A stretch of 39,745 nucleotides of DNA from Syntrophomonadaceae bacterium. Lineage in GTDB: Bacteria > Bacillota > Dethiobacteria > DTU022 > PWGO01. Below, piece by piece: positions 28,390 to 33,347 of this stretch. The notes under the pieces are model-generated. The model saw only the letters and a program-made list of their open reading frames with translations. It did not search any database and had not been told where the DNA came from. The DNA lies in the NCBI GenBank assembly GCA_003550565.1, contig PUKQ01000243.1, positions 1-39,745 of the forward strand, read 5' to 3'. The position numbers and the translations under genes were made by a program. Numbering within the stretch: the stretch's first letter is position 1; the number at the start of each line of letters is the position of its first letter.

Positions 28390-28428
28390 GAAGTAGGTAT
28401 AAAGCATTTGCATAAAGGGGGTTTTGAT

Positions 28429-29016
28429 TTGAAGAGCATTTTGGCTATCTCTTCAAGCCCTCGGCGTAATGGCAACAGTGAGTTGCTGCTGCAGTCATTT
28501 GCCAAAGGGGCGGAAGAAGAGGGGTGTGATGTTTCTTTGGTGCGAATTAATGAACTGAATATTAAGCCCTGCCAGGCTTGTGATGGCTGTGCTGCTACCG
28601 GAGAATGTGTACAGAAGGATGATATGAAAAATATATACCCGCAGGTGGCTTCAGCAGCGGGTATAGTGTTGGCTACCCCGGTTTATTTCGGTTCTCTTTC
28701 AGCACAGTTAAAGGCTTTTATTGATCGTTTTCAATCCTGGTGGCATGCAAAATACAGGCTTAATATGTCTAAGGTAAAACCGGAGGAGGGGAAAAAAGCA
28801 TTTTTCATTTGTGTGGGCGCTCTGCAGAAAAAAGAATATTGTGAAAGTGCCTTGGCAGTGGCCAAAATTTTTTTTCACAATATTAATTATCAATATAAAG
28901 ATTGTATTTGCCAGAGGGGTGTAGACGAGAAAGGCGCTATTAAAGAATACCCCGAGGCGCTGCAAAATGCTTTGGATGCAGGTCGGGATTTTGCCGGGCA
29001 AACTCCGGATCTTTGA
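28429..29016 (+). CDS. Iron-sulfur flavoprotein (NADPH-dependent FMN reductase fold)
   Basis: A 195-residue flavodoxin-like protein. The FMN phosphate loop is ISSSPRRNGNSE (about 8-19) and a second flavin contact is ATPVYFGSLSAQLKAFIDRF. Between them lies CQACDGCAATGEC (Cys48, 51, 54 and 60), a C-x2-C-x2-C-x5-C set matching the compact [4Fe-4S] motif of the Isf family. Isf proteins are cytoplasmic dimers that pass electrons from ferredoxin to FMN and can reduce oxygen or quinone-like acceptors. I prefer the TTG at 28429, seven bases after AAAGGGGG. The TTG at 28408 lies upstream of that site. A small Cys-rich gene follows within 50 bases. Confidence 0.87.
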   Translation: MKSILAISSSPRRNGNSELLLQSFAKGAEEEGCDVSLVRINELNIKPCQACDGCAATGECVQKDDMKNIYPQVASAAGIVLATPVYFGSLSAQLKAFIDRFQSWWHAKYRLNMSKVKPEEGKKAFFICVGALQKKEYCESALAVAKIFFHNINYQYKDCICQRGVDEKGAIKEYPEALQNALDAGRDFAGQTPDL

Positions 29017-29319: not shown

Positions 29320-30174
29320 TTAGGTGTTTTCAGGGGAAGATTTCGGAAGTGAACTTTTAAATTCGGTTTTCCAGGTTAAGGACCCCGAAGGACAGTTATC
29401 TCTACATTTCAAGCAGCGTATGCATTCCGCCGAATTAGACTCTTGGGGTAAATTAAGGTCAACGGGACAAATGCGAGAGCATCTCTTACAGTTTTTGCAG
29501 TTAGATTTATCATAATGAAGCCGGAAAAGAGAAATTTTGTTAAAAAGGCCGTAAAATGCGCCCAGAGGGCAGAGGGTGCGGCAAAATGGCCGGTAAATGA
29601 ATACTGATCCCAGAAGTATTATTCCCAGAATAAACAGCTTGATCCAGAAAATTACACCGATGAGAGGAGAGAGGGAGGCATAATTACTTGCCAGTAAAGG
29701 AAGGCCTGCGCTAAGAGTCCCCTGGGGACAAAGATACTGGCAGAAGTAAGGCGCGCCAAAACCTGCTTCATTTACCCATATAATAGGCAGTACTACCAAA
29801 AGGGCTAAAACCAGGTACTTTGCCCGGGTTACACCATAAGGGAGTTTTTTCTTTATCTTAGACAACCGCCCCAGTAAGTCTTGTATAAGCCCGAAAGGGC
29901 ATAACCAACCACAAATCCACCTTCCCGCTACTGCTCCCACTAATATCATAAAACCGCCCACGTAAAAAGGAATCCGAGTAAAAGGCGCTGCCAAAGCATT
30001 TTGGAGGGCTCCCAGGGGGCAAGACCCCACTGCAGCAGGGCAGGAATAACAATTCAAAACAGGGACACATATCCCTTTGAGGTTCCCTTGATAAATATTT
30101 CCCCTGAAGAAATTAAGTAAAAAAGGGTTTGCCACCAGGGCGGCTATCAATTGCGTGGTTAGACGTTTAGACAT
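29320..30174 (-). CDS. Polytopic 4Fe-4S membrane protein (NapH/NosR-type polyferredoxin)
   Basis: A 284-residue membrane ferredoxin. CYSCPAAVGSCPLGA (about 42-56) is followed by helices at roughly 68-85, 120-140 and 185-205. Between these lie CGWLCPFG and CQYLCPQG loops, then RPFCRTLCPLGAFYG. The C-terminus has two classical [4Fe-4S] sites: CKNCKRCSRICPVDL and CIRCLKCRDNCPSGS. This is the NapH/CcoG-like plan of proteins that carry electrons across or along the membrane. ATG at 30174 follows the stop of the 45-residue CXXC gene by two bases. An earlier ATG at 30207 would overlap that gene and lacks a better site. It is the last gene of the operon with the UGA-containing TlpA-like protein. Confidence 0.9.
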   Translation of the reverse strand: MSKRLTTQLIAALVANPFLLNFFRGNIYQGNLKGICVPVLNCYSCPAAVGSCPLGALQNALAAPFTRIPFYVGGFMILVGAVAGRWICGWLCPFGLIQDLLGRLSKIKKKLPYGVTRAKYLVLALLVVLPIIWVNEAGFGAPYFCQYLCPQGTLSAGLPLLASNYASLSPLIGVIFWIKLFILGIILLGSVFIYRPFCRTLCPLGAFYGLFNKISLFRLHYDKSNCKNCKRCSRICPVDLNLPQESNSAECIRCLKCRDNCPSGSLTWKTEFKSSLPKSSPENT

Positions 30175-30176
30175 TG

Positions 30177-30314
30177 CTAACCCCCCAGCCCCATACATTC
30201 CAAGCATATTACGCTGCCTATTTGATTAACTTGCTGGAATCCACCTTCCCACAGCCCCCAGGCTATCATAAGCAATCCTGCTGCTAAAATGATGAATGTG
30301 ACCTTTTTACCCAT
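30177..30314 (-). CDS. CD1871A-family CXXC miniprotein
   Basis: A 45-residue protein: MGKKVTFIILAAGLLMIAWG, an aromatic turn (LWEGGFQQVN), then a C-terminal ICLECMGLGG. One N-terminal membrane helix and a C-terminal CxxC followed by Gly-rich residues are the features of the CD1871A CXXC-motif family (typical end ICLECIGIG). The family occurs in Clostridia next to a 4Fe-4S membrane protein and a TlpA-like redoxin, as here. AAGAGG lies seven bases before the ATG. With CxxC at the membrane surface it could be a dithiol carrier between the TlpA-like protein and the polyferredoxin. That role is inferred. Confidence 0.82.
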   Translation of the reverse strand: MGKKVTFIILAAGLLMIAWGLWEGGFQQVNQIGSVICLECMGLGG

Positions 30315-30404
30315 AAAATAACCTCTTGTCGTCATTATTTATTTCGTAAATGAATTATACCTAATGTAATATAACGAGCAATAATGATCCTTAAATATAA
30401 GCTT

Positions 30405-30980
30405 TTAGTCAGTTCCCAATAAATTGTCGGCTTTTTGTTGCCACTCTTCTAAAGAACCCTCCTGCCAGCCTGTTGATTCATGTTTTATTGTACCTTCCCT
30501 GTCTATAAAGATCCCTTCCGGAAGGTACTGAACTTCGTATTGACGTGATAATTCTCCCGTGGCATCTATAAATACCTCGCCGGGGATATTTTCTTCTTCC
30601 CAGAAATCTTTAATTCTTTCTTCACTATCGGAGGTAATTGTAATGATTTGCAGGTCTTCTTCCGGGTAATCTTCCAACATTGGCTGCAACTGCAGCATCT
30701 TATCTATGCATGCAGGTCAACCGGTAGAAAAGAAGTTAAGATAAATTACTTTTTCTTCCCAGTCATCCGGAAATTGTTTAGTTTCTCCGGAAAAAAGCTC
30801 GTCTGCCTGAAATTCCGGGGCAAGAGGGGCATCGTTTTCTTCATCCGGAACGCCGTTTTCTTCCACCGGCGCTACCTCGTCGTTCACCACTTCCCCATTG
30901 TCAGGTTCACAGGCAAGAGACATGACAACGAGTAATGTGAGCAAAAGTCCCACGCCGGTTATTTTTAAATAAATTTTCAA
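30405..30980 (-). CDS. TlpA/thioredoxin-like lipoprotein, predicted selenoprotein (UxxC)
   Basis: One 191-codon frame interrupted by a single TGA at 30717-30719 (codon 88). Residues 1-24 are a signal peptide ending MSLAC, a near-lipobox; an acidic Glu/Asp-rich linker follows. The TlpA fold reads VIYLNFFSTG-U-PACIDKM, then ITITSDSEERIKDFW, FIDATGELSRQYEVQYLPEG (cis-Pro) and IFIDREGTIKHESTGW. UGA is exactly where the nucleophilic Cys of CxxC belongs, giving Sec88-Pro-Ala-Cys91. The downstream half has no start signal of its own: its first ATG (30698) is inside the active-site helix. The start is TTG at 30980, nine bases after GGAGG. Likely extracytoplasmic thiol/selenol oxidoreductase. The alternative is a nonsense mutation or sequencing error. 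Confidence 0.75.
30683..30715 (-). promoter_or_regulatory. Candidate bacterial SECIS element
   Basis: Just after the UGA, the RNA can form GCUGC-AGUU-GCAGC (30683-30696), a 5-bp stem whose 4-base loop has its G 26 nt after the UGA. That matches the spacing and loop-G rule I know for bacterial SECIS. A competing fold (30690-30715) has a 9-bp stem with a bulged U and loop AGAUAAG, but starts only one base after the UGA. Confidence 0.45.
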
Positions 30981-31138
30981 AACAAATCACCTCCGGTTAA
31001 AATATATGTAATTATTTGACGGCATAAATTAAATATTTTTTCAGCATTTATGATAAAGTATAATTGATAAAAGCACTTTTTAAAATAGTAAATTGGGATC
31101 AAAGAAACCATATAAAAAACGATGACAATAACGAAAAA

Positions 31139-31167: not shown

Positions 31168-31205
31168 CTTTAAACTGCAAGTAATAGTTAAACAAGGAGT
31201 TTGTG

Positions 31206-33347
31206 ATGACATTTATTTATGTTTTATTAGGCGCGGCAGGATTAATTGTTTTATGGATTTTGGCGGACATTTTAATTGCTTTGAAGCAAAAACCAATTCC
31301 GGACTTACCGGAAGAGTTTTTAGATCCCACCGGCCTTTCCCTGATTTATTATTACCTGAGCGAGCCGTCCCGGGTACCCGCTCATATTACTGTTGATGAG
31401 GAATATATAAAAGATTGCCTTATGCCTTCCCTCCAATTTATCAATAATCGTTATGACTGCGCGGACTTTCGTCTGCAGCTTCTTTTCAGGCTTTATAAAG
31501 ATTGCTTCCATGATCTGCCGCAGAGTATACGCGGCCTAATTAAACAAACCTTCCTTGATTTTAAATACTGGATGGATGAACCGGGGGAAGACAGTATGTG
31601 TTATTGGTCGGAGAATCACCAGCTGCTTTTTGCTGTCAGTGAATACCTGGCAGGTCAAGAATGGCCCGAAGAGATATTTACCAACAACGGAATGACCGGA
31701 AAAGAGCATAAAGAAAAAGCAAAAAAACGTATTGATTACTGGATGGAGCAAAAATTCAGGTATGGATTCTATGAATGGTATAGTAATAATTACTATGCGG
31801 AAGATATTGCTCCTATGTCTAATTATATTCAGTATACTGCAGAAGATGAGGACGACAATTCCGTGGAAAGAATGAAAATAATTATGGATTTGCTCTGGTT
31901 TGATGTAGCCACTCATTCCGTAAATAATACTTTCGTGCCTGTAAGCAGCAGGATGTATGGTGATAACAAATCCAGCGATTTATACGGTAACAGGATAAAG
32001 GCGGCCATGGAATCTATATGGGAAGGAGCGGATTTAGAAAGGTTGATTAAAGCCCAATCGCCCTTGGAACAGCATATTAAAGCAGGCGGTGAGGATGCAG
32101 AAACTACTATAAAGTTGGTAGGCGTTGATGCCCAGATGATGCAAAATTTTATAGCCATGTACAGGGCGGGTTATTATGAATTGCCGCAGGTTATTTATGA
32201 TATTGCCTTAGATCCGGAGCCTGTGGTGATAAAAGCCTCATCGGGAATGAACGTGAGTGAACTAAAAGAAGAGGGACTGGTGGGGCCAGATGATAACCAA
32301 ATTATGGCCCAGTTTGGATGTGAAGCGTTTACCAATCCCGAAGTTGTAACCAATACCCTGCAATACCTTAACCGTCACCGGATGTTTAGGAATAAATTTG
32401 TTAACCCGTTCAGGTTTATCAATATAACCTTTTTAAAGTTATTAAAAGTCCCTCGTTTTATTAGTTCCAAGTTCGAATTGATGACCCATGGAATTGCTTT
32501 AAACAGGGGCAATGTTTACTCTTACAGAACTAAATATTATATTCTCAGCACGGCAATAGCTTACGGGGTTGATGGTTGTGGAGCCCAGGAGCATGTATGG
32601 TCCGCCAACATTTCTCCGGACCTGGCTCTATATACCACGCATCCGGCAAAAGATGATGACAGCAGGGAAAAACATGCCGCGTCTCCGGGATACTGGGTAG
32701 GAAATGGCAGGCAACCCATGAGTGTTCAAGACTTGAATGTAAATATTACCATCTACAAAATACCGCAAAAAAAGCGGCTATTGGAATTTAGCCTGGCTGA
32801 TATTACTCATGCTTATGTGCCCCGGGAGTGTTATGATATTTTGGAAATAGAAGGTAATTATGTGTTTGGCAAGCGTGATAAAGTGCTGGTAGCGATGATA
32901 GCCAATGGGAAATTGCAATACAGGCCTTTTGACAGTTATGCCGCAGCTTTGCTTAAGTGCCATGATCAGATCGAAGAAGAAAATCAGCAAAAACATTTGG
33001 AGAAAGAGTTTGACCTGGTAAGAAAAGGGGGGCGCTATCACACCTATATCACTGAACTGTCTGATACTGATATCGAGAGTTATCAAGATTTTAAACAAAG
33101 GATTTTACACAACCCCGTGGAAGTGGGGGAGGGCAATGTAAAATATGTCACTCACGGCAAGGAATTATATGCCGATTATGAAGGGGACTTTCGAATTGAT
33201 GGGCTTACCCAGGAAATGGAGTATCAAAGATATGATAGCAAATATGCCCAAGTTAAAAGAAACCCCGAAACCATTAACATTCATTATGAAGGCAAAGAAT
33301 TACAGCTAAATTACCGGCGGGCGGAAAGATTAGAAAAAAATGACTGA
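31206..33347 (+). CDS. Large membrane-anchored protein, polysaccharide-lyase-toroid-like
   Basis: A 713-residue protein from the ATG at 31206, six bases after AAGGAG; GTG three bases earlier is too close. Residues 2-26 form one membrane helix with no cleavage site, and the rest is soluble. Around residues 130-260, YWSENHQLLFAVSEYLAGQEWP, then RYGFYEWYSNNYYAEDIAPM and RMYGDNK, resemble the (alpha/alpha) toroid of alginate and heparinase-type lyases: the ENH motif, a G-x-x-EW-S-x-x-Y motif and a later Arg-Tyr pair. C-terminal residues 440-700 are beta-rich, as in the lyase sandwich. I know of no characterised protein like it. If the resemblance holds it acts on an envelope or extracellular polysaccharide. 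The fold call is tentative. Confidence 0.6.
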   Translation: MTFIYVLLGAAGLIVLWILADILIALKQKPIPDLPEEFLDPTGLSLIYYYLSEPSRVPAHITVDEEYIKDCLMPSLQFINNRYDCADFRLQLLFRLYKDCFHDLPQSIRGLIKQTFLDFKYWMDEPGEDSMCYWSENHQLLFAVSEYLAGQEWPEEIFTNNGMTGKEHKEKAKKRIDYWMEQKFRYGFYEWYSNNYYAEDIAPMSNYIQYTAEDEDDNSVERMKIIMDLLWFDVATHSVNNTFVPVSSRMYGDNKSSDLYGNRIKAAMESIWEGADLERLIKAQSPLEQHIKAGGEDAETTIKLVGVDAQMMQNFIAMYRAGYYELPQVIYDIALDPEPVVIKASSGMNVSELKEEGLVGPDDNQIMAQFGCEAFTNPEVVTNTLQYLNRHRMFRNKFVNPFRFINITFLKLLKVPRFISSKFELMTHGIALNRGNVYSYRTKYYILSTAIAYGVDGCGAQEHVWSANISPDLALYTTHPAKDDDSREKHAASPGYWVGNGRQPMSVQDLNVNITIYKIPQKKRLLEFSLADITHAYVPRECYDILEIEGNYVFGKRDKVLVAMIANGKLQYRPFDSYAAALLKCHDQIEEENQQKHLEKEFDLVRKGGRYHTYITELSDTDIESYQDFKQRILHNPVEVGEGNVKYVTHGKELYADYEGDFRIDGLTQEMEYQRYDSKYAQVKRNPETINIHYEGKELQLNYRRAERLEKND

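Follow-up and report, generated by a model that had tools for sequence, protein, structure and literature searches.

The question raised by this locus is whether a TGA within a thioredoxin-like reading frame of a Syntrophomonadaceae bacterium ends a broken gene or is read as selenocysteine. In the window (the whole 39,745-nt stretch of DNA that was analysed), an earlier note, made from the sequence alone, had recognized a single 191-codon frame with a TGA at codon 88, had placed this TGA on the first Cys of a CxxC motif within an unbroken thioredoxin fold, and had predicted a selenoprotein; it pointed to the selenium genes, to codon 88 in homologues, and to the bases after the UGA as places to look. 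Translation confirmed the frame, which lies on the minus strand (no strand had been given) and has the TGA as its sole internal stop (Table 1). The Pfam profiles AhpC-TSA and Redoxin run across the TGA (residues 54–167, E = 1.3e-17), and the alignment to the best structure match, PDB 3hdc, sets the first Cys of its CPYC motif against the TGA, giving a UxxC motif (U-P-A-C). Other solved structures of the TlpA/ResA/StoA type, among them 3erw, 4nmu, and 1st9, also match, and the best Pfam family is AhpC-TSA (PF00578; 64.3 bits, cut-off 26). Gene calling with table 11 breaks the gene at the UGA, and the window copy shows up as two unrelated ORFs. An AlphaFold model made without an alignment had a mean pLDDT of 42 and was set aside. 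Taken with the conserved UGA, the hairpin, and the sel genes described below, the prediction stands: this gene almost certainly encodes a selenoprotein, hereafter Sec-TlpA.

Table 1 Features of the Sec-TlpA locus (positions in the window)
Feature	Position	Strand	Remarks
Sec-TlpA gene (predicted selenoprotein)	30405..30980	minus	191 codons; TTG start (30980-30978), TAA stop; codon 88 is an in-frame TGA
Sec88 codon TGA (first position of UxxC, U-P-A-C)	30717..30719	minus	TGA at this codon in 20 distinct Bacillota sequences
Codon TGC of the presumed resolving residue Cys91 (last position of UxxC)	30708..30710	minus	TGC/TGT in 20/20
Shine-Dalgarno GGAGGTGA	30987..30994	minus	6 nt upstream of the TTG start
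bSECIS apical hairpin GCUGC-AGUU-GCAGC	30683..30696	minus	Within the M-LQLQP codons, 25 nt after the UGA
CD1871A-family CXXC membrane peptide (probable member)	30177..30335	minus	52 aa; second start MGKK at 30314
NapH-like membrane polyferredoxin	29320..30207	minus	295 aa; next gene, presumed operon

A scan of genome contigs with the single Sec-TlpA protein as query recovered no relative, whereas a four-sequence alignment of the source protein with those of genomes G001, G030, and G032 retrieved further relatives from Bacillota, the phylum being assigned from the titles of the sequence records. The G001, G030, and G032 proteins share 35–40% identity and have TGA at exactly the equivalent of codon 88. 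In total, 20 distinct sequences, including that of the source genome, from several Bacillota families have TGA at the equivalent codon, and the active site across the Sec proteins reads [FY][FY]xxxUxxC or a near variant of it, with LQLQP downstream in every case. A pseudogene or a sequencing error, in which TGA arose from the active-site Cys codon through a nonsense mutation or a wrong base call, could be suspected in a draft assembly of 279 contigs with 6.4% contamination but is very improbable, as the frame is otherwise intact, as in bacterial selenoproteins with an in-frame UGA, and the same TGA recurs at low sequence identity in the 20 sequences together with an identically coded hairpin.

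Homologues have either UGA or Cys at this codon. A tree built from 70 sequences split the 20 Sec proteins, together with one Cys protein (L144), from 49 more distant Cys homologues with a support of 100/100. L144 has Cys at the UGA position in the same operon, and thereby supplies the kind of Sec/Cys pair by which selenoprotein families are supported. L144 is likely a Sec-to-Cys reversion, the direction being not proven because L144 sits on a long branch. The L144/L190 locus (G409) encodes the same TlpA in its Cys version (NCPAC) with the same neighbours, and has lost the SECIS hairpin.

The hairpin comprises bases 24–37, numbered from the U of the UGA. Published bSECIS elements have a loop of 3–9 nt, a stem of 4–16 bp, a G as the first or second loop base, a distance of 16–37 nt from the UGA, and an MFE of at most -7.5 kcal/mol; the source hairpin, with its 4-nt loop AGUU (G second), 5 bp, 25 nt, and -7.7 kcal/mol, fits this model in every respect. 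The two strands of the window together hold 1180 TGA triplets, and three of these, that of Sec-TlpA counted, are followed by a 5-bp hairpin with an early loop G at exactly this offset. All five base pairs form in each of the 20 Sec sequences, with C-G replaced by U-G in two, and in the variant LQLRQ of G241 the stem is kept through a G-U pair. The stem is nearly invariant and therefore has little covariation to offer. The hairpin is absent from the Cys homologues.

The same bases write the protein motif. LQLQP after the UGA is encoded as (C/T)TGCAGTTGCAGCC in all 20 Sec sequences, i.e., (C/T)TG CAG TTG CAG CCN; apart from the C/T, which differs in two sequences, the coding is identical. For the second Leu, 20 of 20 sequences use TTG, which makes up 14% of the Leu codons in the rest of these genes, and the Gln codons are CAG in 40 of 40 cases, as against 60% elsewhere, although probabilities derived from this bias are not to be taken literally because the sequences are related. 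Codon 7 after the UGA encodes four different residues, and its third base is always the pairing G. The Sec-TlpA family is a clear case of an RNA signal fixing a protein motif (LQLQP) over long evolution.

Three of the four selenium genes that the earlier note had named were recovered: selA (597.6 bits), selB (394 bits), and selD (358 bits) all score above their NCBIfam cut-offs and are clustered on contig C235 of the source genome. The selD gene (G000:C235, L048:1333-2598, minus strand) has an in-frame TGA of its own (SAGUAAKIG), and a possible hairpin, GCACAA-GUU-UUGUGC, comes after it. The fourth, tRNA-Sec (selC), was not found in the draft assembly: ARAGORN detected no tRNA on the sel cluster, blastn of the G001 tRNA-Sec against the source genome gave an 18-nt match only, and an Rfam search of the window and the sel loci returned no match. 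An assembly gap is the likely cause, since tRNA-Sec scored above the Rfam cut-off in both genomes of the same family and in 44 of the 60 genomes searched. The missing tRNA-Sec is also what would speak for a reading of UGA as Cys, Trp, or Gly through an altered code or an odd tRNA. Such decoding is scarcely credible: TGA terminates normal genes of the window, such as the one at 28408-29016, which argues against a general change of code; selA, selB, and a UGA-bearing selD are present; and a bSECIS would serve no purpose. We rejected the changed-code reading, like those of a pseudogene and of a base error, on the conserved UGA and the hairpin.

Selenocysteine is the preferred reading, and under it UGA codon 88 would be decoded by SelB with Sec-tRNA, guided by the bSECIS inside the coding sequence. 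The product would be a TlpA/ResA-like thiol:disulfide oxidoreductase whose N-terminal segment holds it outside the cytoplasmic membrane. This N-terminus consists of a hydrophobic segment followed by a Cys in SLAC, a poor and non-canonical lipobox, so of the TlpA-type lipoprotein described in the earlier note we retain the TlpA type and a likely membrane anchor; lipidation is less sure. Judging by fold and motif, Sec88 would be the nucleophile that attacks a disulfide (or a peroxide) outside the membrane, and Cys91 would resolve the resulting selenenylsulfide, after which the pair would be re-reduced. By analogy with ResA or StoA, the substrate is most likely an extracytoplasmic protein disulfide. 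ResA and StoA are the best NCBIfam relatives and have a membrane-anchored thioredoxin fold in common with Sec-TlpA, but they carry CxxC in place of UxxC, and Sec-TlpA stays below both cut-offs (54 and 41 bits as against 170 and 210).

What re-reduces the Sec/Cys pair is a separate question, to which the neighbouring genes suggest an answer. In Bacillus, ResA and StoA are served by CcdA, whereas no CcdA was found in the source genome. More broadly, CcdA/DsbD_TM was not found in 10 of the 13 genomes searched, the source genome among the 10, and CcdA was present in three of these 13; 10 of 14 control genomes encode CcdA/DsbD_TM. The CD1871A and polyferredoxin neighbours reported in the earlier note are real and conserved. 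The source CXXC peptide scores below the cut-off of the CD1871A model NF040920 (22.6 bits as against 32) and the peptides in the equivalent position of sister operons reach 42–50 bits; it is probably a divergent member of this family. On the other side of Sec-TlpA, a divergent gene (31203-33347, plus strand) encodes a 714-aa protein without a Pfam or NCBIfam match.

The polyferredoxin adjoins Sec-TlpA at most loci. A polyferredoxin profile run against 399 genomes gave 16 matches above 380 bits, every one of which adjoins a UGA-containing TlpA. Among the next 14 polyferredoxins, one adjoins a TlpA recognized by the motif search, which would miss a TlpA more than 1.5 kb away or with another motif, and this TlpA also has UGA (UGYC). 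It lies beside the CD1871A/polyferredoxin pair of G245 (L177/L192), is not of the LQLQP type, and has a SECIS-like hairpin CAGCCC-UGGAA-GGGCUG; it possibly represents an independent gain of Sec in this neighbourhood.

Because of the conserved neighbours and the missing CcdA, we propose that the polyferredoxin, perhaps together with the CXXC of the CD1871A peptide, carries electrons across the membrane in place of CcdA/DsbD. Re-reduction of Sec-TlpA by this pair is the most likely route, at a confidence near even. Against it, Sec-TlpA of G030 and G032 lacks polyferredoxin neighbours, and three genomes also have CcdA. The alternative is a selenoprotein that acts as a peroxiredoxin-like or general disulfide reductase and is recharged by other means, with the polyferredoxin and the CD1871A peptide doing a separate job. 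That AhpC-TSA is the best Pfam family would suit such an enzyme, as would the occurrence of Sec-TlpA without either partner gene in G030 and G032 and the lower-scoring polyferredoxin/CD1871A pairs, most of which have no recognized TlpA within 1.5 kb. Set against this are the unbroken association of the 16 closest polyferredoxins with UGA-containing TlpA, the further polyferredoxin next to a different TlpA that again has UGA, and the mostly missing CcdA. We regard this alternative as a real possibility that falls somewhat short of an even chance.

If the operon is read as serving Sec-TlpA, anaerobes without CcdA/DsbD would have a ferredoxin-type route by which reducing power crosses the membrane, and the so far unexplained CD1871A peptides would gain a role. 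The full proposal is an undescribed, Bacillota-wide, selenium-dependent membrane redox module, in which a Sec TlpA with its LQLQP motif fixed by the SECIS is recharged by polyferredoxin and CD1871A instead of CcdA, an Fe-S protein thereby feeding an extracytoplasmic selenol. We put it forward tentatively, with rather more doubt than confidence in the whole.

The earlier note had suggested that a Sec-containing protein in such an operon may be undescribed, and had called UxxC proteins of the thioredoxin fold an established selenoprotein class. The latter agrees with reviews that list PF00578 and cd02966 members (PMC9312934, PMC13188914). The former may hold for the operon setting, of which we found no report, but not for the protein kind, UxxC selenoproteins of this fold being already catalogued (PMC9312934, PMC13188914). 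Literature searches returned no paper on CD1871A and none linking NapH, TlpA, and selenocysteine in such a setting. Prx-like thiol:disulfide oxidoreductase selenoproteins (PF00578, UxxC/UxxU) are known mainly from Geobacter and other Deltaproteobacteria (PMC1794560, PMC9312934, PMC13188914); compared by description, they share with Sec-TlpA the Pfam domain, a UxxC with Sec first, and a bacterial SECIS, and differ in their reported hosts, mainly Deltaproteobacteria as against Bacillota here. The thiol-disulfide isomerase-like selenoprotein of the Sargasso Sea and marine metagenomes (cd02966 TlpA-like, UxxC; PMC1088965, PMC13188914) shares the TlpA-like fold and UxxC, and, again compared by description, differs in that no report of a polyferredoxin/CD1871A neighbourhood was found for it.

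The ResA-like WAxxUGC motif protein (NF041054) and SaoT (NF040730) are likewise Sec-containing thioredoxin-like proteins. The NF041054 motif is UGC and relatives of Sec-TlpA reach only 26–29 bits against its cut-off of 300, a search of NF040730 with Sec-TlpA gave no match, and a SelL-related model scored 23 bits against 120; no NCBIfam model covers the Sec-TlpA sequences tested. Sec-TlpA would be a new subfamily of selenoproteins whose general kind is already known. The 'distant Prx-like' selenoprotein that a 2006 survey noted in Syntrophomonas wolfei might belong to this subfamily. Two AhpC/TSA-like proteins in relatives also have an in-frame TGA in a UPFC motif (L024 in G012 and L027 in G051), and L027 has a hairpin GGCGC-AGUU-GCGCC at a spacing from the UGA equal to that of Sec-TlpA.
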